14,974 nt of DNA from NCBI GenBank assembly GCA_003598085.1, contig QZKU01000024.1, positions 1 through 14,974 of the forward strand, given 5' to 3'. This document shows positions 2,521-14,974 of the stretch, one piece after another. The notes under the pieces were generated by a model that did not search any database, had not been told where the DNA came from, and saw only the letters and a program-made list of their open reading frames with translations. Position 1 is the stretch's first letter, and each line of letters opens with the position of its first letter. Origin of the DNA: Candidatus Abyssobacteria bacterium SURF_5. GTDB taxonomy: Bacteria > Abyssobacteria > SURF-5. The position numbers and the translations under genes are program-made.

Positions 2521-3270
2521 TTAGACCAATTGCAGATAAAGCAGAAGCATTAGCACAGCCGCCATTGAAGCCGCGAAAAGCATGTCCGCCCGCGAGCGCG
2601 GCCGCTCATCGAGGACGTAAAATCTTCCATCAAACCCGCGGCATAACATCGCCGCATGGATCGCCTGCGCTTTTTCATAGCTTACAATCAACAGCAATCC
2701 GATCAGGTGGGCATATGCCTTATATGTCCGCAGATTGTTTGTCGGTCGAAACCCGCGCATTGTCATGGCCGCCTTCATCCATCCGTACTCGCGCTCGATT
2801 TCCGAAAGATAGCGAAGCATGAAGAGCAATATCTGCACGATCTTGGCGGGCACGCGCAGGCGGTGCAGCCCGCGCGCGATCTCGGCCGGCCGATTCGTTG
2901 CAAGAAGCGCAATGCCGGCGGCTACGATCGCATTCGATTTGATTGTGAGGATGAGCGCAAGCGAAAATCCGTCGGGCGCGATGCCGACCGGCCCGAGTTG
3001 AATGGGCGCCGCGCCCGCGAGCCTGATCGGGAGCGTGAGCCACAAAAACAGCACGAAGAAATTCACTATCACCAGACGCCGCAGGAGCGGGCGGACGGGC
3101 AACTGCGCCTGCACGATCAGGACAAAGGCCGCGCATGCGGCCGAGGCCAGAGCGGGATGGCGGCTCAGCAGGGCCGTCACGACCGAAAATCCCGTCGCTG
3201 AAATGATCTTCACGCGCGGGTCGAGCCGGTGAATCCAGGACGAGCCGGCGGAAAAATCCTGTTCGAGCAT
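2521..3270 (-). CDS. cbiQ: Cobalt/nickel ECF transporter T component (CbiQ/NikQ)
   Basis: This is the 249-residue energy-coupling transmembrane subunit that links the metal-binding S component (CbiM) to cytoplasmic ATPases. Seen in the sequence: the family opening HRLDPRVK (residues 14-21), several membrane helices, and the two alanine-arginine-glycine coupling motifs AMTMRGF (168-174) and AMLCRGF (207-213) that form the coupling helices touching the ATPase. Length is normal for the family. The ATG lies one base beyond the TAA of the upstream NikL-like gene, with AAGGG inside that gene's end, so translation is probably coupled. Both coupling motifs are intact, which implies that a partner ATPase exists although none is encoded in the window. 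Whether cobalt or nickel is moved cannot be read from CbiQ itself; the NikL-like neighbour favours nickel. Confidence 0.93.
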   Translation of the reverse strand: MLEQDFSAGSSWIHRLDPRVKIISATGFSVVTALLSRHPALASAACAAFVLIVQAQLPVRPLLRRLVIVNFFVLFLWLTLPIRLAGAAPIQLGPVGIAPDGFSLALILTIKSNAIVAAGIALLATNRPAEIARGLHRLRVPAKIVQILLFMLRYLSEIEREYGWMKAAMTMRGFRPTNNLRTYKAYAHLIGLLLIVSYEKAQAIHAAMLCRGFDGRFYVLDERPRSRADMLFAASMAAVLMLLLYLQLV

Positions 3271-3271
3271 A

Positions 3272-3916
3272 TTACCCTTTTCGCCTGCTGCGCAGGTAGG
3301 CGATGAGCCCCATGATTCCGACGATGTAACCGATGCCGCCGATGATATCCACCAGACGCCTGCGGTCGCGCTCCGCCTCGAACGCCCGCCGCAACGGGGC
3401 CACCTGCCGCGCGACTGCGCGGTCTATCATCTGTTCGAAAGCGGTGAGGTCGGCAGTTTCCTCGATCGCCGGCATTTCTTCAGCCGCAGGCGATGGTTCG
3501 ACTATTTCGGGTCCGCTCTCCGCCGTTTTTGCCATTTCTCCCTCTTTTGGAGGGAGCGGAATTCCCCATGCGGCGGGAAGATCGGCGGCAGGCAGCACGT
3601 ATTCGGCCTGGTGGCCCATCGATGCGTTCAGCCTGATGAGAAGATCGGACCGCACCGGCGGCTTGAACCGGAAGCTGCCGTGCGCGTCCGTCTTTCCTTC
3701 AAGGAGTTTCTTCCCGTTCGCATCGAAAACTTCGATCGCCGAATCGGCGCATTTGCGGCCGTCCGCGAAGTACGTTTCCGCGATCACCTCGCCGCCTTCG
3801 ACATAGGCGAAGACATTCACCTTATGCGCCCACGCCGGCGCCGGAACGGCCAGAATCGCCGGCAGCAGAACCGCGGCAATCAGGAGATTTCTATACACGG
3901 GTATGCGTTCGCTCAT
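3272..3916 (-). CDS. NikL/CbiL-like accessory subunit of the nickel ECF transporter
   Basis: This 214-residue protein has an N-terminal signal peptide with likely cleavage after AWA (residues 28-30), which would leave a mature protein starting HKVNVFAYVEGG. A small beta-sandwich-like domain follows (AIEVFDANGKKL, GSFRFKPP), typical of carboxypeptidase-regulatory-like folds. Then come a Pro/Glu-rich linker (about 120-155), a charged amphipathic stretch (FEQMIDRAVARQVAPLRRAF) and a C-terminal membrane helix (about 188-208) with a basic end. This layout matches the NikL/CbiL components that replace NikN/CbiN beside some nickel CbiM-type proteins. The start overlaps the end of cbiM by 26 bases and has GGAGG 6 bases upstream; the stop is one base before cbiQ. 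It should sit in the inner membrane with its folded domain in the periplasm, helping metal capture or gating. Family is fairly clear; the nickel preference is inferred. Confidence 0.82.
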   Translation of the reverse strand: MSERIPVYRNLLIAAVLLPAILAVPAPAWAHKVNVFAYVEGGEVIAETYFADGRKCADSAIEVFDANGKKLLEGKTDAHGSFRFKPPVRSDLLIRLNASMGHQAEYVLPAADLPAAWGIPLPPKEGEMAKTAESGPEIVEPSPAAEEMPAIEETADLTAFEQMIDRAVARQVAPLRRAFEAERDRRRLVDIIGGIGYIVGIMGLIAYLRSRRKG

Positions 3917-4517
3917 GGGGCGCCTCCAGGACTTCGATCTTTACCTTTTTCAGAAAGCCGACGACGAGCATGGTCAGTATTCCTTCAATAATCATGATCG
4001 GAACGTGCGCCAGCACAATGATACGGGCGGCCACAAGAAAGGAGTTCCCTGATAATAATAACGTAAATGCGACCAGAATGCCGCTCAATGCTATGGCCGC
4101 GGCTCCGGCAAGAAAGGATGCCGCCGCCGAGACCGCCGCCCGCTTTCCCCTTACGAGGCGGCCAAACAACAGATAGCAGACGACTGCGGGCAAAGCCAGA
4201 TTGAACGTGTTGACACCGAGCGTGGTTAACCCGCCGAATTGAAAGACGATCGCCTGCAGAAAAAGCGCTGACAAAACAGCAGGGAATGCCGCCCATCCGA
4301 GCAGGATGCCGGTGAGCCCGTTGAGCACAAGATGCATGCTGGCGGGGCCGACCGGCACGTGAATCAGCGAGGCTACAAAGAAAGCGCTCGCGGTGATCGC
4401 GACCTGCGGAATGCGGTCGTAATCCATCTTCCGCAAGCCGCAGGCGACGCCGGCCGCGGTCAAGCCGGTGCCGGTTATCAATACAGGAGCTGTGAGAACG
4501 CCTTCCGAAATATGCAT
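3891..4517 (-). CDS. cbiM: Cobalt/nickel ECF transporter substrate-binding S component (CbiM/NikM)
   Basis: This is the metal-recognising membrane subunit (208 residues). It begins MHISEGVL, the diagnostic start of the family; in solved NikM/CbiM structures the free N-terminal amine and His2 take part in binding the metal. Further histidines at 53 and 62 (LIHVPVGPASMHLVLNG) sit where the family has its conserved metal-site histidines. About six hydrophobic helices follow, ending in a basic HERTHTRV tail, which adds two more histidines. AGGTGA lies 4 bases before the ATG. It is the first gene of the tight cbiM, NikL-like, cbiQ operon and overlaps the next gene by 26 bases. No cobalamin riboswitch and no NikR-type GTATGA dyad was seen upstream; the 560 bases before it are repeat-rich. 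Confidence 0.93.
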   Translation of the reverse strand: MHISEGVLTAPVLITGTGLTAAGVACGLRKMDYDRIPQVAITASAFFVASLIHVPVGPASMHLVLNGLTGILLGWAAFPAVLSALFLQAIVFQFGGLTTLGVNTFNLALPAVVCYLLFGRLVRGKRAAVSAAASFLAGAAAIALSGILVAFTLLLSGNSFLVAARIIVLAHVPIMIIEGILTMLVVGFLKKVKIEVLEAPHERTHTRV

Positions 4518-4520
4518 TCA

Positions 4521-5079
4521 ATCACCTGACTTCTTATCTTGTATTCCGGACTCCGGATCGGAGTCTTTACCAGAGAGATTCTTCGTCGCGTTGCTCCTCA
4601 GTAACGACAATCCTGGGTGCCCGGCTGGAGGTCCGTGCGGTCGGGCACGTCCCGCCGTGCCCCTACATCCATGAAAGCTTGTCCCGGACCCGATCCGGGA
4701 TCTGCGGGAATCCGCGGATATCGCGCCTTTCTGCGGATCTCCTGCGACACCGGCAACTCCACCAGGGTTACACCATGATTTTTTATCCGCAGATTACGCA
4801 GATTCTCACAGATTAAAGACCGACATTTCAACGACAAAAAATTCTTGAGCATTTGTCGTTTTCCTCTTCGTATCTTTTGGTCCCGAAGATTGTCATTTAG
4901 GCTTTTTCCGGAATCCGTGTAAACTTGTCCCGGACTCCGATCCGGGATCTGCGAAATCTGCGGATTAATAGTCTTTGTCTTTAATCCGTGTTAATCCGTG
5001 GTCCAATAATCTTTGTGGTTAATCCGCGAAAGCCGGGATCTGCGAAATCTGCGGATACATCTCTTGGATTTTATGAATC
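4521..5079. repeat. Intergenic repeat mosaic between DUF4198 gene and cbiM
   Basis: No gene is supported here. From left to right the stretch holds an AGAGAGATTCTTCGTCG-type phrase (4573-4612, recurring at 5891-5930 and inverted at 11282-11320), a GGGCACGTCCCGCCGTGCCC palindrome (4643-4662), a CCCGGACCCGATCCGGG dyad (about 4683-4700), CGCAGATT phrases (4783-4813), a hairpin AACGACAAA/TTTGTCGTT (4830-4860), a GTCCCGGACTCCGATCCGGG dyad (about 4926-4947), and TTAATCCGTG phrases (4980-5010). The part 4816-4956 is closely repeated in direct orientation at 8935-9075. An open frame at 4598-4852 (-) has a counterpart at 13704-13928 (+), but this only reflects copying of the DNA. Confidence 0.85.
4642..4866 (-). 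repeat. Long inverted repeat, copy 1 (partner at 13674-13899)
   Basis: Read on the minus strand this 225-base segment matches 13674-13899 on the plus strand almost base for base, with one length difference in a T run and a few substitutions (for example GTCCGGGACAAGC against GTCCGGGAGAAGC). It is a composite of the AACGACAAA hairpin, CGCAGATT phrases, the CCCGGATCGGGTCCGGG dyad and the GGGCACGGCGGG palindrome. No target-site duplication or transposase was recognised. Confidence 0.9.
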
Positions 5080-5847
5080 TCATTTCATGTCGCGGACATT
5101 GATCCACATGAGCCCGCCGACCTCGACCGGTACTTCCTCGCCGTCCGGGTTCTTCAGTTTGTGCTCGCTTTCGCTCAAGGCCGAGAATCCCCACCAGCCC
5201 GCGCGCGGCATCGCATAACTGAATACGCCGCCGGCGTCGGTCTTGATGACCTGCGTGATGAACGGATCGGCGGGCGGCTGCACCTTGCCGTCCTGATTGT
5301 AATATTCGACCTCGACCTCGGCAAACGGGAGCGGTACTCCATTTTTCTTCACAATTCCGCGGAACAGGTTGCCCGCCCACAGGCCGTACGGGCGCGTCAG
5401 CGGCACGATCTCCATTTCGTATCCGAGCTCCGCGTCCCAGCCTTCTTCGAGTCCAAGCGCGTTCACCACGACTTTCGTGTAATGAACGATCATCAGTCCT
5501 TCGGCCGGCTCCCAATACGGCGCGGGCTTCACATAGAAGACGTGGTCGCCGGGGCGTCGTATCGTATAGCTGGCCTGGAAGGCCGAGCGTCCTTTGCAGG
5601 GCGCGCCCTCGAGCGACTTCAGCAGGTCATGTTTCTTGCCGCCCGCGAAGACGCCGAATTCCGCCGGTTCGGCCATATCCATCGCTGTTCCTTCCATCGG
5701 ATGAATGAACATGAGCCTGAGGCTCACCTCCTTGTTGTCAGCCGGAGAGACGATATCGGTGGACGGAACGAGCATCTGGAAATGACCGTATGCCGGCGCA
5801 GCAACTGAGAACAGCATCAGGAAAACGAATGGGGTGATCTTGTTCAT
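5080..5847 (-). CDS. DUF4198 (NikK-like) periplasmic protein, nickel uptake associated
   Basis: This 255-residue secreted protein has a signal peptide ([21 protein letters not shown]) with likely cleavage before HFQMLVPS, so the mature chain would begin with histidine. The opening [12 protein letters not shown] and the closing beta-sandwich domain ([40 protein letters not shown]) are characteristic of DUF4198. Members of this family are often encoded beside cobalt/nickel ECF transporters and include NikK. It should act in the periplasm as a metal-binding or metal-presenting factor. I chose the ATG at 5847 because AAGGAG (5855-5860) lies 7 bases upstream and the signal peptide then starts directly; the frame runs on upstream to 6054 but through repeat DNA and without a ribosome-binding site. 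It precedes cbiM on the same strand across 560 bases of repeats, so it may be a separate transcript. The nickel role is inferred from family and context. Confidence 0.85.
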
Positions 5848-6043
5848 TTGTCGGCTCCTTTTTGTGGAATGTTTTTCCTGGTTTCGGTAATAAGAGAGAT
5901 TCTTCGTCGCCTTGCTCCTCAGAATGACAACCGCCAACTCCACAGGCTGGAAGCCTGTGCCACCATGCCTTTTCAAACGTCTTTCAGTTTTCCCAAAAAA
6001 TTCGTCTAATTCAGTAATTCGTGGCCCAAAATGTTTTTCAGTT

Positions 6044-6162
6044 ATTCGTCTCATTCGTGCTTCTTATTCGTGTTCCAATATGTTTGTCTTTAATCCGAGT
6101 TAATCTGCGAAATCTGCGGACTAACAGTCTTTGTCTTTAATCCGTGTTAATCCGTGGTCCAA
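6044..6162. repeat. 119-base direct repeat, copy A
   Basis: This segment is repeated 144 bases further on at 6188-6306 with essentially no change; the one difference I noticed is CTAACAG against CTAATAG. The 25 bases between the two copies are a degenerate form of the sequence just before copy A, so the pair looks like a tandem duplication within the repeat mosaic. Confidence 0.9.
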
Positions 6163-6187
6163 ACGTCTTTCAGCTTTTCCTCAAGAA

Positions 6188-6306
6188 ATTCGTCTCATTC
6201 GTGCTTCTTATTCGTGTTCCAATATGTTTGTCTTTAATCCGAGTTAATCTGCGAAATCTGCGGACTAATAGTCTTTGTCTTTAATCCGTGTTAATCCGTG
6301 GTCCAA
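6188..6306. repeat. 119-base direct repeat, copy B
   Basis: Second copy of the segment at 6044-6162, with a spacing of 144 bases from start to start. Confidence 0.9.
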
Positions 6307-6391
6307 TAATCTTTGTCTTAATCCGCGAAAGCTTCTCCCGGACCCGATCCGGGATCTGCGAAATCTGCCGATTCGCAGCCTTTGCCTTTCC

Positions 6392-7690
6392 TCAGAAATC
6401 CACCTGCGCGCGAGTGCCGAGGATAATGATGGTATCGTTGTCGTCGTTGCCGCCGGGGTTGGATATCAGCTGTATGTCGGGCGACAGACGCAGCCACTCG
6501 TTCAATGCAATCGAATAATACGCTTCCACGAGCGTTTCGGTGTCGTCGGGTTCCACGTCGTCATTGATAAGCGCCTGCGCCAATGCCACACCGGCGACGT
6601 CTCCTTCGCGTCCCCACTTCTGGCCGGCCAGTTCGAAGCCTGCGCTCCATGCTTTTTCGACTTCGTAAACATCATCATCCTCGAAACCGAACCTGAGAAA
6701 GGCCGTTAGGTAATCGGTGATCGCCTGATCGAAACTGATGCCGGCGCCCCATCCGTCATCGCTGTTCCCGGAACTGAAGTCGGGTTTGTCCGAGTGGTTG
6801 AGCCAGGCATAGAAGCGGTAGTTGCCAGGCCTCCCGAGCAGGAGCGGCTTGAAATGAAGCTGGGCAATGCCGAAGCCGTCGCGGTCGAGGTCTTCCCATT
6901 CGCTCTTGCCCCAGCCGGCGGCCATTTCGACCCAGTCGGCGGGATATGCGGTTGCGACGGCGCCGGGCCCATTATCCGGGAATTCGACCGCAATCGAATT
7001 CACCAGCGCCGAATTGAGGAACTCATATCGTTCGTCATTGGCGACTTCGTTCGTATCGAAGTAATTGGTCATATCGAGTTTGCCGGCGACCAGCGTGAGG
7101 CGCTCAGGGATGACAGAATGCTGATACCACGCTTCGCTGATTTCGAGGCGGCTCTCGGAGTCGAGCGCATCATCATTGACGTTGTGATAGAGAAGGGCGA
7201 GTTCATCGGTAAGACCCTCTCCCTGGCCCGCCTCAATCAGGATGAAGGCATGTCCGCGCTCTCCTATAGGGGATTCGATCTCGAAGTCGGCCGACCACGA
7301 GCCATCGATGGTGTCGCTCTTCTCTCCGCTGAGGTCCTCGGCGTCGATGCTTCCCTGCACGATACCGGTCAGCGCCGCCGCAACGCTCAAATCGCCCAAC
7401 TGCTTCCCTATGTCGGCTCTTTCGTGCAACAGATGCTTGTCGATGTGCGGCGCCAGGCGGGCGGCGGTTTCGGGCGAATGCATCTGCTCCCTCATCTCTT
7501 CGATGAGTAGCTGCTGCTCCTTCATTTGCTCGGATTGTTGTTCGACAACCTGCTGCAACTCGATCACCATCTGTTTCAAGTCGCGCAGTTCCTGCTCGAT
7601 TGGAACATCCTGCGCCGCCGCAGAGGTGGGCAGCGCCGTAACAAGCGCAGTTAAGAGGAGCGCTTGAATCTTGCGGCTCCACGTCGTCAT
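6392..7690 (-). CDS. OprB-like outer-membrane porin with N-terminal coiled coil
   Basis: This 432-residue protein has a signal peptide (cleavage near SAAAQD, residue 26), then a glutamine/glutamate-rich coiled coil (about 30-70, heptads around LRDLKQMVIELQQVVEQQ). The rest consists of alternating aromatic and polar strands typical of a beta barrel and ends in a terminal phenylalanine (RAQVDF), the usual signal for barrel assembly. The segments LVAGKLDMTNYFD and FYAWLNHSDKPDF, with WGAGISFDQAITDYLTAFLRFGFEDDD, resemble carbohydrate-selective OprB-type porins. The coiled coil probably spans the periplasm toward peptidoglycan. GGAAGGAG lies 7 bases before the ATG. The loops are very acidic (DDDVYEVE, NDDVEPDDTE), which would suit cation passage. 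It lies between the DUF4198 gene and cooT on the same strand, so a role as an outer-membrane nickel entry port is conceivable but is context only; sugar or other solute uptake is equally possible. Confidence 0.82.
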   Translation of the reverse strand: MTTWSRKIQALLLTALVTALPTSAAAQDVPIEQELRDLKQMVIELQQVVEQQSEQMKEQQLLIEEMREQMHSPETAARLAPHIDKHLLHERADIGKQLGDLSVAAALTGIVQGSIDAEDLSGEKSDTIDGSWSADFEIESPIGERGHAFILIEAGQGEGLTDELALLYHNVNDDALDSESRLEISEAWYQHSVIPERLTLVAGKLDMTNYFDTNEVANDERYEFLNSALVNSIAVEFPDNGPGAVATAYPADWVEMAAGWGKSEWEDLDRDGFGIAQLHFKPLLLGRPGNYRFYAWLNHSDKPDFSSGNSDDGWGAGISFDQAITDYLTAFLRFGFEDDDVYEVEKAWSAGFELAGQKWGREGDVAGVALAQALINDDVEPDDTETLVEAYYSIALNEWLRLSPDIQLISNPGGNDDNDTIIILGTRAQVDF

Positions 7691-8891: not shown

Positions 8892-8933
8892 ATAGCGCGG
8901 TTGAACCCGAGAGTGGGGGTTTTGCAGCAGAAT

Positions 8934-9240
8934 TAAAGACCGACATTTCAACGACAAAAGAAACCTCGAGCTTTTGTCGGTTTCCTCTTCGTATCTTTTG
9001 ATCCTGAAGATTGTCATTTAGTCTTTTCTCGAATCCGCGAAAGCTTGTCCCGGACCCGATCCGGGATCTGCGGAAGAATCCTTTTCTTTACGACGTTTCT
9101 CGCCCGGGCGGCCACGCCGGCATGCCTCTAAATCCGCGAAAATCTGCGGAATCTGCGGATTAATAGTCTTCGTCTTTAATCCGCGTTAATCCGTGGTCCA
9201 ATAATCTTCGTCTTTAATCCGCGGAATCAGCGGATGAAAA
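8934..9240. repeat. Intergenic repeat mosaic upstream of the sigma54 activator
   Basis: No gene is supported. The first 140 bases (8935-9075) closely repeat 4816-4956 in direct orientation, including a CGACAAAAG/CTTTTGTCG hairpin. There follow the CCCGGACCCGATCCGGG dyad, an inverted copy of the GGATCC-TTTC-CGGGCGGCCACG element (about 9083-9125; other copies at 10919, 11125 and 13431), and TTAATCCG and CTGCGGA phrases up to about 9237. Confidence 0.85.
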
Positions 9241-9322: not shown

Positions 9323-10840
9323 TTGCTACAACGCGATCGAGGACCAATGCCTGCACCCGCTCAGTCGGACCGATATCACAAGCTTGTTGAAATCAGCAAT
9401 CTGATTAATTCCACCATCGAAATAGATTCTCTTCTCGACCTTGTCATAGATACCGTTTCTTCCGCGTTGGATGCCGAAGGCTGCTCGCTCGTGTTGAGGC
9501 AGCCGGGCACGGATGAGCTTCAGTTTCGCCACGCCTCGGGCGCCGCGAAAGAGGAAGTAAAGAAGATTCGGCTGAAATTGGGCGAAGGCGTGGCGGGGCT
9601 GGTCGCGCTGGATGGCCGGCCGATACTGATACCCGATGCGCGCTCCGACAGCAGGGTGCGCCACGATATCTCTCGGAAGGTAGGCATGCCGGTTCGCAGC
9701 ATGTTGTGCGCGCCGCTCTCGGTGGGGGGCAAGCTTGTCGGCTCGATCGAGGTGCTCAATCCCCGAAACAAACCCTCCTTTGATGAAGAAGATCTCAAGT
9801 TCTTGACCGCAGTCAGTGAATCCATTGCCATTTCAGTGCGCAACGCGCGCCTGTTCGACCTGGTGAGCTCCGAAAAGGAGGCGCTCAGCCGCGCGCTCGG
9901 GCTGCACCCCACAATCGTTGGCAACAGCGAGGCGATGCAATCCATCTTTGCGATGATCTATCGCATCATGCGCACCGACGTCACCGTGCTCATAACCGGC
10001 GAGACCGGCACCGGCAAGGGGCTTCTGGCGCGCTTCATTCATGAGAACAGCCCCCGCCGCCATCAGCTTATCGTGGAGGTCAATTGCGCGGCAATTCCGG
10101 AGACGCTCATCGAGTCGGAACTGTTCGGCCATGAGAAGGGCGCCTTCACCGGCGCCACGTATCAGCGCAAGGGAAAATTCGAGCTGGCCGATAACGGGAC
10201 ACTGTGTCTCGATGAGATCGGAGACCTCTCTCCGCGCGCGCAGGCAAAGCTGCTCAGGGCGATCGAGGAGCAGCAGTTCGAGCGAATCGGCAGCAACACC
10301 ACCATCACGACCGACGTGCGCCTGATCGCCACCACCAACCGCGACCTCGCGCTAGCGGTCAAGGCCGGCGATTTTCGCGAAGACCTGTATTACCGCCTCA
10401 ACCAGATTCAGATTCATCTCCCATCGTTGAAGGAGCGCCGCGAGGATATCATGCTGATCGTCGAGCACTACCTCGAACAGTACAGCCGCCAGTTCGATAA
10501 GAAGATCGCTTCCATTTCCGTGCCCGCCAAGAATTTTCTGCTCGACTACGACTGGCCCGGCAATGTGCGCGAGCTGAAAAACATGCTCAAGCGCGCTCTC
10601 CTGCTGTGTGACGAAGACGAGATCAAGTGCGAACATCTCCCCCTGTTGATTCAACCCGGAAGCGAGAAGGAAACGGTCGCGGGCGCGCAGATGTTTCCGA
10701 ACCTGAACGACCTCGAAAAGACCCACATCATTGCAGCGCTGCAGCGGGCGGAAGGCGTAAAAAAGAAGGCGGCGGAAATGCTCGGCATCTCGCGCTCGAC
10801 GCTCGACAGGAAAATTGAGGCGCACAAGATCGTGCTGTAG
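9323..10840 (+). CDS. GAF / AAA+ / Fis sigma54-dependent transcriptional activator
   Basis: This 505-residue enhancer-binding protein activates RNA polymerase carrying sigma54. An N-terminal GAF sensor domain (about 20-180) is joined by a short linker to the central AAA+ domain (about 195-430). The latter has Walker A GETGTGKG (226-233), the sigma54-contact loop GAFTGA (273-278), Walker B TLCLDEIG (293-300), sensor I ATTNRDL (336-342), the arginine-finger region FREDLYYRL (351-359) and WPGNVREL (411-418). A C-terminal Fis-type helix-turn-helix (KKKAAEMLGISRSTLDRKI, 480-498) binds the enhancer. All motifs are intact. I used the TTG at 9323 with AAAGG 8 bases upstream; an ATG at 9347 is the alternative and would cost only eight residues. 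There is no receiver domain, so the signal is probably a ligand or redox state sensed by GAF. Its neighbour on the other strand is DUF3842-cooT. I did not find a clear TGGCAC-N5-TTGC site, so targets are unknown. Confidence 0.95.
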   Translation: MLQRDRGPMPAPAQSDRYHKLVEISNLINSTIEIDSLLDLVIDTVSSALDAEGCSLVLRQPGTDELQFRHASGAAKEEVKKIRLKLGEGVAGLVALDGRPILIPDARSDSRVRHDISRKVGMPVRSMLCAPLSVGGKLVGSIEVLNPRNKPSFDEEDLKFLTAVSESIAISVRNARLFDLVSSEKEALSRALGLHPTIVGNSEAMQSIFAMIYRIMRTDVTVLITGETGTGKGLLARFIHENSPRRHQLIVEVNCAAIPETLIESELFGHEKGAFTGATYQRKGKFELADNGTLCLDEIGDLSPRAQAKLLRAIEEQQFERIGSNTTITTDVRLIATTNRDLALAVKAGDFREDLYYRLNQIQIHLPSLKERREDIMLIVEHYLEQYSRQFDKKIASISVPAKNFLLDYDWPGNVRELKNMLKRALLLCDEDEIKCEHLPLLIQPGSEKETVAGAQMFPNLNDLEKTHIIAALQRAEGVKKKAAEMLGISRSTLDRKIEAHKIVL

Positions 10841-10854
10841 CAAGAGGATTCGCG

Positions 10855-11340
10855 ATCCGCAGATTCCGAAATTAAAGACAAAGACTGTCAATCCGCAGAT
10901 TCCGCAGATTTTCGCGGATGTAGGGGCGGCCCCGCGTGGCCGCCCGGGCGAGAAACGTCGTAAAGAAAAGGATCCTTTCCCAGATCCCGGATCGGAGTCC
11001 GGGACAAGTTTACACGGATTAAAGACAAAGATTATTGGACCACGGATTAACACGGATTAAAGACACGGATTAAAGACAACGACTATTAATCCGCAGATTT
11101 CGCAGATTCCCGCAGATTTTTATGGATGTAGGGGCGGTCCCGCGTGGCCGCCCGGGCGAGAAACGTCGCAAAGAAAAGGATCCTTCCGCAGATCCCGGAT
11201 CGGGTCCGGGACAAGCTTTCACGGATGTAGGGGCACGGCGGGACGTGCCCTATCGCACAGGCTTCCAGCCCGTGCACCCGGGATTGTCATTCTGAGGAGC
11301 AGAGCGACGAAGAATCTCCATGGTCGAATTCATTCGGCCG
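10855..11340. repeat. Intergenic repeat mosaic downstream of the sigma54 activator
   Basis: No gene is supported. The stretch holds CGCAGATT phrases (10859-10910), two direct copies of the TGTAGGGGCGG-CCCGCGTGGCCGCCC-GAGAAACGTCG element (10919-10978 and 11125-11185), the GATCGGAGTCCGGGAC dyad (about 10984-11005), GGACCACGGATTAACACGG (about 11037-11055), a GATCGGGTCCGGGAC dyad (about 11197-11212), GGGGCACGGCGGGACGTGCCC (11230-11250), a GGCTTCCAGCCCGTGC remnant (11260-11275) and an inverted ATTCTTCGTCG phrase (11282-11320). Confidence 0.85.
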
Positions 11341-12065
11341 GTTTGATCGATCTCCCCGGCCTGCAACGGGCTTGGACGAGCGGGATCCCCCTTTATAGTC
11401 GCAGCGGGCACAGATTGCCCTGAAAATTGTGAAAATGCACCGAAAAGTTGTAACAACTACAAATTACGCGCTGTTTTTCTGTGACGGCCCGGCCGAATTT
11501 TTATAACTGAAAAGATCGTTTTATTAGTTCAGGGCGCTCAGGCGTGATTGAATTCCCAAGGTTCTGAAATGAGTCAAGGCAGCCGCTCGGGTATGTCCAA
11601 CACGATACACATCGAAACCCCAATCTTTGACAGAAGTTACGCATCAAATAGCGCCCGCGTTGCGCACGATAAGACACACCCTGCATACCGATGTCCCGAA
11701 ACAGGTTCAACGAGCCCCAAAACGTGCGGCGGCCAGTCGTTCTAAAGCCTTGCAAATGTGCCAATTGCAGTTGGGAACCGGCAGTTCAATTCCGTATGCC
11801 TTATTGTGGCACAGTCTTTGCTCGAATAATAATGGCTGATTCCGGCCCACCAGGCAGGCAAAGCAGCCGGCTGAATTCAGGACGAAACGTAAGTGATGCC
11901 TACGAAATCAGTTGTGCGTGGAGGAGCGCGAGAAGATGCCGAAGGCGTTCACCGTTCGGCAACTGCGGAGGTGGGAAAATGCTGCCTTTTCCTGAGGTTT
12001 TTTCTGCCCCAAATCTTCTCCAGCACACGGCTTGGCGCACTTTTTCGATGAAAGGAGAGATACCG
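11341..12065. other. Unassigned leader region before the GspG-like gene
   Basis: This 725-base stretch is not made of the repeat families seen elsewhere and has no gene I can support. It is open in the frame of the downstream pseudopilin from 11691, but that extension has no ribosome-binding site and would put 125 residues before a prepilin signal, so I reject it as coding. Within it, about 11745-11835 reads as a decayed zinc-ribbon-like peptide (CKCANC and MPYCGTVFAR, with one of the expected cysteines replaced by Met). Possible RNA stems are GCCGAA/TTCGGC (about 11938-11964) and GGAAAA/TTTTCC shortly after, followed by a T run near 11996-12003. The segment from 11400 to 11530 is AT-rich and could carry a promoter, but I cannot assign one. 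Confidence 0.45.
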
Positions 12066-13385
12066 ATGCCTCCTCGGCTCGCCGATGAACGAGGTTTTAC
12101 CCTGACGGAACTGCTTGTGGTGGTTGGAATCATCGTGCTGTTGACCGCGATCGTGGTTCCTAACATCGTAGGACGGATCGATGCGGCGAAGATGCACGCA
12201 GCCGAGGATCAGATCGCGGAAATCGAGACCGCGCTCGCGGCCTACTACGCCGATTTCGGGACGTATCCGGGCGACGTGTTCCCGACCGAAGACAGGAACA
12301 ACGACGGCGTTCTCGAACCCAGTGAAGACTCCAACTTCAATAACAGTCTTGATGCGGGTGAAGATAAGAACAGCAACTCTGTCCTTGACCTTTACGAGGA
12401 TACCGGCGTCGATATCGATGGCGACGGCTACTACGATTATGCGTGCAATACGGACGGCACCGGCCGGTCCAACGGCCGGCTCGACCGCGGCGACGGCGTC
12501 ATTAACATCGATGACCTCGAGTGGGCGCTGAAGACCACCGCGAAGAACGGTCCCTACATCAAGGAGATTCCGCTCGATCCCTGGGGCAACAGGTATGTCT
12601 ATTACGCTCCATTGAGGCGGCCAACCTACAACTCGAATGACCTAAACGACAGGGGCGACGAAGACTATCTGTGGATTGATCCTGCGAATAACGATAGTCC
12701 ACCCACTCTGAATGATCGAACGTTGTGCAGCGAGGATATTAACGGGAACGGCAGGCTGGATACCGGCGAAGACGTCGGTATCGCGGTTTACGATGTGAAT
12801 ACAGGCGTTGCGACTGTCTACGTGAGAACTGCGGCCACGCCCGGTGGCGTGCCTGCGTTCACCTCGATGCGCGCTGGCTCCGGCAACGGCATCCTCGATC
12901 ACGGCGACGACGACAACAAGAACAACAATATCGAGACGTATATCGATATGGCCACGCCGGAGGCGCCCAATCACATCGAGCTCGGCAATGCGGATATCTC
13001 GCCCGACGGCCTCGCGCGCAATATCGGCTACTACATCTACTCCATCGGAAGAGACAAGCGGGACCAGACCGCGACCGGATACGAGGATATAGAGTTGAAC
13101 GGCATGATTAACGGCGTGCTTGATATCGATCCGTCAACCACATTTGATGAAGACCTCGACGCGGACGGCTCGCTCGATTGCGGGTATGAGGACGTCGGCC
13201 TCGACGGTATCCCCGGCACGAAGGACCAGGGAGAGGATGACGGCGAGCTGACCGTCGGCACCGGCGGCGATACGCGCGACGAAGACTTCGACGGCGACAG
13301 CGAACTCGACGGTCAAGACAACGACGATATCAATAGCTGGAACAAGAAGAGGCCGTGGCGCAGCCATTCGAATTACGGCGGATGA
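12066..13385 (+). CDS. GspG-like major pseudopilin expanded with calcium-loop (EF/dockerin-like) repeats
   Basis: This 439-residue prepilin has a class III signal: cleavage after Gly10 in DERG, mature start FTLTELLVVVGIIVLL with Phe+1 and Glu+5, helix to about residue 34. It then follows GspG: the amphipathic helix DQIAEIETALAAYYADFGTYP (49-68), the hallmark DPWGNRYVYY (171-180), IYSIGRDK (324-331) and the closing DDINSW (420-425). GspG is normally about 140 residues; here about 300 extra residues are inserted in three places: 75-155, about 185-318, and 333-417, the last inside the family's own calcium loop. The inserts carry about ten Asp/Asn/Gly motifs such as DRNNDGVLEPSED, DIDGDGYYD, DINGNGRLDTGED and DLDADGSLD, which look like EF-hand or dockerin loops. 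AAGGAG (12052-12057) is 8 bases before the chosen ATG. A GspH-like gene follows 956 bases later. Assembly into a pseudopilus stabilised by calcium is inferred. Confidence 0.88.
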   Translation: MPPRLADERGFTLTELLVVVGIIVLLTAIVVPNIVGRIDAAKMHAAEDQIAEIETALAAYYADFGTYPGDVFPTEDRNNDGVLEPSEDSNFNNSLDAGEDKNSNSVLDLYEDTGVDIDGDGYYDYACNTDGTGRSNGRLDRGDGVINIDDLEWALKTTAKNGPYIKEIPLDPWGNRYVYYAPLRRPTYNSNDLNDRGDEDYLWIDPANNDSPPTLNDRTLCSEDINGNGRLDTGEDVGIAVYDVNTGVATVYVRTAATPGGVPAFTSMRAGSGNGILDHGDDDNKNNNIETYIDMATPEAPNHIELGNADISPDGLARNIGYYIYSIGRDKRDQTATGYEDIELNGMINGVLDIDPSTTFDEDLDADGSLDCGYEDVGLDGIPGTKDQGEDDGELTVGTGGDTRDEDFDGDSELDGQDNDDINSWNKKRPWRSHSNYGG

Positions 13386-13399
13386 TGAAAAGAAGCACG

Positions 13400-13905
13400 T
13401 ACGATCCGCAGATTTCACAGATTTTCACGTATGTAGGGGCGGCCCCGCGTGGCCGCCCGGACGAGAAAAGTCGCAAAGAAAAGGATCCTTTTGCAGATTT
13501 TTACGGATTAAAGACAAAGACTATTAATCCGCAGATTTCGCAGATTAACTCGGATTAAAGACAAAAATATTGGAACACAAAACGCACGAATAAGAAGCAC
13601 GAATGAGACGAATAACTGAAAAAACCTTTTGGACCACGAATTACACGAATGAGACGAATTTTTTGGGAAAACTGAGGAAAACGACAAATGCTCAAGAATT
13701 TTTTTGTCGTTGAAATGTCGGTCTTTAATCTGTGAGAATCTGCGTAATCTGCGGATAAAAAATCATGGTGTGACCCTGGTGGAGTTGCCGGTGTCGCAGG
13801 AGATCCGCAGAAAGGCGCGATATCCGCGGATTCTCGCAGATCCCGGATCGGGTCCGGGAGAAGCTTTCATGGATGTAGGGGCACGGCGGGCCGTGCCCGA
13901 AGACG
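13400..13905. repeat. Intergenic repeat mosaic between the two pseudopilin genes
   Basis: No gene is supported. It holds CGCAGATT phrases, a fourth copy of the TGTAGGGGCGG-CCCGCGTGGCC element (13431-13490), ATTAAAGACAAAGACTATTAA phrases (13506-13565), ACGAATGAGACGAAT phrases (about 13590-13660; inverted relatives at 5978-6125) and then the long inverted-repeat partner at 13674-13899. The open frame at 13704-13928 is a by-product of the latter. Confidence 0.85.
13674..13899 (+). repeat. Long inverted repeat, copy 2 (partner at 4642-4866)
   Basis: This 226-base segment is the near-identical reverse-complement partner of 4642-4866. It contains the AACGACAAA/TTTGTCGTT hairpin, CTGCGTAATCTGCGG, the GATCCCGGATCGGGTCCGGG dyad and a GGGCACGGCGGGCCGTGCCC palindrome. 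Confidence 0.9.
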
Positions 13906-14125: not shown

Positions 14126-14156
14126 ATTATTAAAAAAGAATACGCAAAAACAATAG

Positions 14157-14307
14157 ATCCGCAGATTCCGCAGATTAACGCAGATTAGAATGAATGGAAA
14201 TCTTCGGGGGCAAGAGATATAAGAATCGAACCAGAAGGGGCCTAAGACTCTTTTTGTCGCTGAAAGTTTGTTTCTTAATCTGAGAAAATCTGCGTAATCT
14301 GCGGATA
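14157..14307. repeat. CGCAGATT repeat phrases before the GspH-like gene
   Basis: ATCCGCAGATTCCGCAGATT and a further CGCAGATT occur at 14157-14187, and the opposite orientation CTGCGTAATCTGCGG at about 14290-14305. Between them a short TTTTTGTCGCTGAAAGT piece (about 14251-14267) resembles part of the long inverted repeat. No gene is present between 13386 and 14341. Confidence 0.75.
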
Positions 14308-14341
14308 GAGACTTAACCGAATCTGTGGCTGGCGAGGGAAA

Positions 14342-14974
14342 ATGAAGCGGCAGGGGTACACGCTGGTTGAGATGCTGGTCGTTCTGGCGATCATCGCGCT
14401 CATGATGGTCATTGTGGTTCCCCGTTTTGCCGTTTCGCAGAAGGGGGAGGGCCTCAAGGGGGCCGCGAACGAGCTCGGCTCAATGTTACGAACCGCCCGC
14501 CGCATCGCAATCACGAAGCGCCAGGTCCGCGCGCTCGCCCTCGATATCTATTCGATTCCGGCTGAATTCATGATCATGAGATGGGATGAAGATCCTGATC
14601 CCACCAAGTCCACATGGATTCAGGATGAGGGGACGGAAACGCATAGGTTCACCGATGAAAATGTCGCGGTTGTGGCGGTAACGACGCGAAACTGGGGCGG
14701 CGGCTCAAGTCTGGATATCACGCGAACGGATGATATGAATCCTTTCGACGGCGCTGAGGAGCTTTGCACCGGGACACCACCCTACTTCGATTCCAATGAA
14801 AGGTTATTCAATCCACAAATTAATGCTTCGGGAGCCCCGGCTTACGGCAATAGCCACGTGAATGTGGTTTACCACCTCATCAAGTTCCAGCCGACCGGCA
14901 CGGCCGACGAGGCGCTCATCTATCTGTGGAATATTGAAGAGAATCGGCGCGAGATACCCACCGCCGAATACGCA
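14342..14974 (+). CDS. GspH-like pseudopilin (3'-partial)
   Basis: The frame is open from the ATG at 14342 to the window end, 211 residues. It starts MKRQG then YTLVEMLVVLAIIALMMVIVVP, a class III prepilin signal with cleavage after Gly5 and Glu at +5; the +1 residue is Tyr where Phe is usual. After the helix comes KGAANELGSMLRTARRIAITKRQVRALAL, the conserved stretch of GspH/FimT minor pseudopilins (a helix and first strand). The rest is unrecognised. GAGGG lies only 3 bases before the ATG. It follows the GspG-like gene on the same strand, as expected for a type II secretion pseudopilus operon, but 956 bases of repeats separate the two. The product is longer than a typical GspH (about 170 residues) and is not finished at the window edge. 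A FimT-like type IV pilus role is the alternative. Confidence 0.87.
   Translation, partial: MKRQGYTLVEMLVVLAIIALMMVIVVPRFAVSQKGEGLKGAANELGSMLRTARRIAITKRQVRALALDIYSIPAEFMIMRWDEDPDPTKSTWIQDEGTETHRFTDENVAVVAVTTRNWGGGSSLDITRTDDMNPFDGAEELCTGTPPYFDSNERLFNPQINASGAPAYGNSHVNVVYHLIKFQPTGTADEALIYLWNIEENRREIPTAEYA

Follow-up and report, generated by a model that had tools for sequence, protein, structure and literature searches.

Pseudopilins of the GspG type (GspG/PulG/EpsG/XcpT; PF08334, TIGR01710) are major pseudopilins of type II secretion, and the function of GspG requires calcium (Korotkov 2009, as cited in PMC10574481). The ion is bound by a PERCAL-type loop, defined as G-x-D-G-x-x-[GN]-[TN]-x-D-D, with D117 and D125 (3G20 numbering) as side chains of the canonical site (PMC3396595). 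Hydrogen exchange on PulG showed that in the filament residues 86-97 and 127-134 are newly protected, while the loops α2/β1 (residues 69-85), β1/β2 and β2/β3 remain accessible (PMC6692295). Modular type IV pilins, which carry extra sequence on the pilin core, are known and varied, e.g. PilB and PilC from Streptococcus sanguinis and GspK, where a domain is inserted in the sheet, and many of their modules are expected to be still missing from databases (PMC8179133). Calcium-type loops repeatedly inserted in a folded domain are found as PERCAL inserts in PepA peroxidases and GspG (PMC3396595). In literature searches we found no description of EF-hand modules on any pilin or pseudopilin.

Here, we describe a GspG-type pseudopilin whose enlargement is conserved and lineage-specific; it is enriched in calcium-type loops at what appear to be outward positions and is probably under its own sigma-54 control. 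The protein shares with GspG the prepilin signal, the helix, the order YP, GPYI, DPWGN-Y, YSIG-D and DDINSW, and the position of the calcium loop, but it differs in its three inserts, in a TIGR01710 score below the cut-off, in its location outside the type II secretion system (T2SS) cluster, and in the presence of a separate, ordinary GspG in the same genome. As compared to modular type IV pilins, the extra part is not one grafted domain, but is spread over three outward loops and matches no known domain; what is unusual is that the chain is interrupted at three loops, the calcium loop itself included.

A GspG core interrupted at three points

The window, i.e. the whole stretch of DNA analysed, is one complete contig of 14974 bases from the 5.1 Mb draft genome of Candidatus Abyssobacteria bacterium SURF_5 (G000). 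The limits of cores and inserts were obtained by aligning the protein to nine ordinary T2SSG-type pseudopilins. The gene and its parts are as follows:

12051..12057, plus strand: Shine-Dalgarno sequence AAAGGAG, read directly, ahead of the ATG at 12066
12066..13385, plus strand: enlarged GspG-like pseudopilin, 439 aa, ATG at 12066, stop at 13383-13385
12066..12272, plus strand: core 1, residues 1-69, RGFTLTE prepilin signal and long N-terminal helix to ADFGTYPG (N_methyl, TIGR01710 on residues 9-69, alignment)
12273..12515, plus strand: insert 1, residues 70-150, about 81 aa, α2/β1 loop, three contiguous EF-type loops (alignment)
12516..12614, plus strand: core 2, LEWALKTTAKNGPYIKEIPLDPWGNRYVYYAPL, residues 151-183 (T2SSG profile positions 55-83 on residues 159-186, alignment)
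12615..13028, plus strand: insert 2, residues 184-321, about 138 aa, β1/β2 loop, EF-type loop at residue 224
13029..13055, plus strand: core 3, YYIYSIGRD, residues 322-330, strand and first side of the canonical calcium loop (alignment)
13056..13322, plus strand: insert 3, residues 331-419, about 89 aa, within the canonical calcium loop, one EF-type loop (residue 407)
13323..13385, plus strand: core 4, DDINSWNKKRPW..., residues 420-439 and stop, second side of the calcium loop and C-terminal peptide (alignment)

An earlier note, made from the DNA sequence alone, had described the protein as a GspG scaffold kept in order, about three times the usual length and interrupted at three points, one of them the calcium loop, and this description is borne out throughout. 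Pfam T2SSG (PF08334) matches the 439-aa protein in two stretches (8e-11, 42.4 bits; gathering cut-off 21), N_methyl reaches 21.5 bits (1.6e-4; cut-off 21.2), and the class III signal, G followed by FTLxE and a hydrophobic helix, is present, with TIGR02532 above its cut-off. TIGR01710, the GspG equivalog, also matches in two stretches, but with 67.4 bits remains below its cut-off of 88.85, as is expected for a chain that is broken by inserts. PDB matches to EpsG/GspG cover residues 159-197. In the alignment all conserved GspG blocks occur in order, i.e. RGFTLTE with the helix to TYPG, LEWALKTTAKNGPYIKEIPLDPWGNRYVYYAPL, YYIYSIGRD and DDINSWNKK, and the three inserts, in total about 308 aa absent from canonical GspG, lie between them. 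In the canonical calcium loop G-x-D forms one side and DDINSW the other, and insert 3 separates them. A scan of viral contigs for further GspG rows gave mostly N-terminal pilin matches, which were left out of the alignment.

The only two other genomes of the phylum Candidatus Abyssobacteria, a deep-branching and uncultured lineage, in our collection (G001 and G002) contain orthologues with 64% and 61% identity, both with inserts of differing lengths at the same three points, so that homologues with the same insert positions, which the earlier note had proposed to search for, do exist. All three genes are preceded by the Shine-Dalgarno sequence AAAGGAGAG. Differences at codon positions 1/2/3 amount to 0.27/0.24/0.56 for the 64%-identical and 0.31/0.25/0.56 for the 61%-identical orthologue, which, together with the degree of identity, demonstrates that the frame is truly coding and under purifying selection.

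Judged from the alignment, the three inserts appear to map onto the three PulG loops that are accessible in the filament, and the counterparts of the protected PulG segments, GPYIKEIPLDPWG and SWNKK, seem to be retained. This is the architecture expected if the protein still polymerises and carries its extra parts on the outside. AlphaFold2, run with the three orthologues and thus on a shallow alignment, gave a mean pLDDT of 30.8 and a pTM of 0.15 and was counted neither for nor against this arrangement.

Searches covered 386 genomes, i.e. the three of the phylum and 383 sampled from other lineages. A match running through the inserts was found in none of these 383 genomes, and a separate scan of genome contigs returned just the two known orthologues. 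The family-level relatives of the source genome are limited to Candidatus Abyssobacteria SURF_17 and to one genome from groundwater that is filed under Poribacteria. Matches to long frames from other phyla were read as possible equivalents and rejected, as they do not have this architecture; several of them (L068, L070, L075) are cassettes in which four to six large pseudopilin-like genes (300-560 aa) lie together, some with isolated, scattered Asp loops of the EF type. Enlarged sets of pseudopilins are thus not limited to Abyssobacteria.

Calcium-type loops in the inserts

The strict 12-residue EF-loop pattern occurs five times in the 439-aa protein (starts at residues 76, 88, 100, 224 and 407), as compared to 0.07 expected from shuffled sequence. 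The "about ten" calcium motifs of the earlier note are reproduced in number by a loose pattern (10 found, 2.5 expected in shuffles), but this count includes one motif overlapping another and one that is the core DDINSW; the strict definition gives five. Two elements can be singled out:

12291..12398, plus strand: three EF-type 12-residue loops head-to-tail (D76, D88, D100, next D112), in exact register and without spacer
13197..13226, plus strand: PERCAL-like GLDGIPGTKD, residues 378-387 in insert 3, shared by the three orthologues, with another residue in place of the last PERCAL Asp

The loops share the ligand spacing D-x-N/D-x-N/D-G-x-L-x3-E/D with EF-hand, dockerin and thrombospondin type 3 loops, but they are contiguous, lack flanking helices, form a tandem array without cysteines and are missed by the Pfam models. 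For the whole protein, Pfam EF-hand, dockerin and TSP3 gave no match at E up to 1, and for the separate inserts there were only non-significant EF-hand (3.5 and 4, the best being EF-hand_1 with E=3.5) and TSP_3 (7.7) hits. The inserts thus contain no recognised Pfam domain, i.e. not the recognised extra functional domain by which a modular pilin is defined. Because these models miss the inserts, calcium binding stays a prediction, which we regard as plausible from ligand spacing and enrichment.

Among the three orthologues the strict loops number five (window), three and one, i.e. individual loops turn over, and by eye G001 has three units of the contiguous array and G002 a single one. Within the inserts Asp, Asn, Glu and Gly are invariant in all three orthologues at 67 of 145 positions, as compared to 43 of 163 for the other residues (p = 0.0003), and the invariant blocks include GNxDxSPDGL and GYEDxGxDGIPGTKD. 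The part GxDGIPGTKD, once per orthologue in insert 3 and invariant except for the x position, resembles a PERCAL loop, but GLDGIPGTKDQ, GLDGIPGTKDN and GNDGIPGTKDF all lack the last ligand Asp and so deviate from the motif; moreover, most loops here are of the EF type. At the canonical site the equivalent of D125, D421, is invariant, whereas the equivalent of D117, D330, is Asn in both other orthologues. One reading is that the ancestral calcium site may have been relaxed and other sites may have taken over.

Predicted sigma-54 control, operon partners and other pseudopilins

Three elements were observed that go beyond the earlier note, namely a predicted sigma-54 promoter with an activator gene, partner pseudopilins and, elsewhere in the genome, a second GspG of the ordinary kind. 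The features in the window are:

9323..10840, plus strand: gene of a NifA-like sigma-54-dependent activator, GAF - AAA+ - Fis-type HTH (Pfam: Sigma54_activat 2.6e-70, GAF 2.1e-20, HTH_8 2e-14)
11807..11822, plus strand: predicted sigma-54 (-24/-12) promoter TGGCAC-AGTCT-TTGCT, 11/11 consensus match
14342..14974, plus strand: GspH-like pseudopilin, cut by the contig end at 14974 (N_methyl 1.2e-7; TIGR01708 7.6e-9, below cut-off; 55% identity to G001)

The predicted promoter lies about 240 bases ahead of the enlarged gspG gene and is the single 11/11 site in the window (0.02 expected per window). Sites of the same quality, again the sole ones per locus, precede both orthologues (L016:7933 and L017:8141); the 295 bp upstream contain no 9-mer common to the three loci, yet the sigma-54 site is conserved. 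No shared activator-binding site was found upstream of the three promoters, and neither the T2SS region of G000 examined nor the surroundings of the stand-alone GspG-like paralogues described below yielded an 11/11 site. A GAF-AAA-Fis activator, which in the window scores under the NCBIfam equivalog cut-offs shown, is the upstream neighbour at L016 and L017, too, and we infer that the adjacent activator drives the promoter of the enlarged gspG.

In G001 the enlarged gspG is followed by genes for an H-like protein, a small protein (GxxExxY type by eye, unrelated), an I-like protein (395 aa) and a J-like protein (688 aa). DxDxDG occurs four times in the I-like (0.12 expected) and twice in the J-like protein (0.45 expected), but the H-like proteins have no such Asp loops. 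The contigs of the window and of G002 stop inside the H-like gene, and searches for H-, I- and J-like genes in G000 and G002 indicate that the remaining operon is hidden by contig ends, which is not demonstrable gene loss. The Verru_Chthon cassette (TIGR02596/02598/02599) resembles this locus in comprising several large pseudopilin-like genes and in N-terminal matches of the H-, I- and J-like proteins; all these matches are, however, far under the cut-offs and confined to the N-terminal signal and helix.

The ordinary GspG of G000 has 150 aa, scores 132 bits to T2SSG and 167.6 bits to TIGR01710, and sits on another contig (G000:C25, L019) within a cluster whose genes were read as gspD to gspM, whereas the window contains neither gspD/E/F nor assembly genes, i.e. 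the enlarged protein is not part of a T2SS cluster. As an ordinary GspG is present in an ordinary T2SS cluster, the enlarged protein represents a second, dedicated pseudopilin. By reading, the gspD-M cluster at L019 is nearly complete, whereas the paper describing Ca. Abyssubacteria states that the SURF genomes have no complete secretion system (PMC6121073).

All three genomes also contain a stand-alone enlarged GspG-like paralogue of 355-377 aa with ED-x-G-x-D repeats and without strict EF loops (L018:7838-8971, minus strand; L066:5979-7094, plus strand; L067:6809-7876, minus strand). A conserved and unusual expansion of PilT-family retraction ATPases is a further trait of these genomes: each has about 10-11 that score above the curated cut-off, including a tandem of four (G000:C113:25234-29571, minus strand; G001:C184:22136-26524, minus strand; G002:C99:3848-8190, plus strand), in addition to about seven GspE/PilB-type ATPases. 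A search for PilY1 was blank, as were its controls, and has no bearing on the absence of PilY1.

Possible roles of the protein and surroundings of the locus

Taking these observations together, we lean slightly towards a GspG-derived modular pseudopilin which is the first gene product of a second, sigma-54-controlled pseudopilin operon and which has predicted calcium-loaded outward loops. The enlarged protein would be processed by prepilin peptidase and polymerise as PulG does; the platform would probably be a shared one, of a T2SS or a type IV pilus, with its genes at another place in the genome. In the periplasm or outside, calcium would be bound by the EF-type and PERCAL-like loops, thereby folding the inserts; the calcium-loaded outer layer may stiffen the filament and present an acidic surface for adhesion or binding of secreted cargo. 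The role of calcium would then be mainly structural, as in GspG, but at more sites; calcium sensing, as envisaged in the earlier note, is possible, and nothing specific points to it. The positions of core and inserts, the promoter at three loci, the excess of EF loops, the Asp loops of the partners and the presence of both PilT and GspE/PilB-type ATPases count in favour of this reading, whereas the turnover of strict loops, the exchange of D330 for Asn, the incomplete PERCAL-like loop, the H-like proteins without loops and the missing Pfam EF-hand, dockerin and TSP3 matches count against it. Whether the whole operon forms a calcium-armoured pseudopilus, with many outer calcium sites on the main subunit and on the I- and J-like partners, with stiffness or adhesion set by external calcium and with a borrowed, shared assembly machine, is a more speculative extension that we put forward tentatively and consider rather doubtful.

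If the main-subunit reading holds, the protein would constitute a natural test of which parts of a pseudopilin may vary, its chain being broken at three outward loops with the polymerisation segments intact, and of whether multiplied calcium sites can tune a filament. Moreover, a lineage first described without a complete secretion system would then have a regulated, sigma-54-dependent pseudopilin operon located outside its T2SS cluster.

Alternatively, the protein could belong to a type IV pilus as a minor or tip pilin, not as a main subunit, with the Asp-rich inserts serving as an adhesive module exposed at the filament tip. Modular pilins are widespread and thought to be mostly located at the tip (PMC8179133), the PilT-family proteins make type IV pili likely, and the partners resemble minor pseudopilins, the I-like protein scoring best, although below cut-off, with PilV (TIGR02523); in addition, a filament may lack room for three large inserts on every subunit. 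Nevertheless, we regard this alternative as unlikely, as the core is of the GspG type, i.e. that of a major pseudopilin, the gene is the first in its operon, the strong-consensus promoter suggests high expression and the inserts avoid the segments that are buried in the PulG filament.

Even less probable in our view is that the inserts are an acidic, mostly disordered spacer, i.e. fast-changing Asp/Asn-rich repeats that act as hydrophilic padding with little or no specific calcium binding. A spacer would fit the composition (23% D+N, pI 4.05), the lack of Pfam domain matches, the varying number of strict motifs and, weakly in view of the shallow alignment, the very low pLDDT; it would leave unexplained a ligand spacing far above shuffled expectation, three loops in exact register, the invariant insert blocks, and the higher conservation of Asp, Asn, Glu and Gly.

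Dockerin-like docking, in which the inserts would bind partner cohesin domains and build a surface complex, had been suggested in the earlier note and is highly improbable: the EF-type loops look like dockerin calcium loops by eye and G001 has eight cohesin matches, most in large open frames (L083-L085; G001:C81 and C262), but neither the whole protein nor the separate inserts (E up to 10) match Pfam dockerin, the loops are back to back without dockerin helices, and there are no cohesin matches in the window's genome or in G002, both of which have the pseudopilin.

Away from the pseudopilin genes the window contains the following features:

158-1573: CFI-box-CTERM protein (99.8 bits to NF041770); a glycine run precedes the CFIATAAYGS box, and there is a weak SdrD_B-like match
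2521-7690, minus strand: genes of a CbiM/CbiQ-type metal transporter, a DUF4198 protein and an OprB-type porin
about 4640-5070, 6020-6390, 8930-9230, 10860-11270, 13400-13900 and 14130-14310: mosaic intergenic repeats

The region with the CbiM/CbiQ-type genes is possibly a metal-uptake locus. The mosaic repeats (ATCCGCAGATT... and GGACCACGGATTAACACGGATT...) occur in many copies with 60-98% identity and are a possible cause of contig breaks; they are minus-oriented in the left and plus-oriented in the right part of the window, matching the direction of the neighbouring genes.
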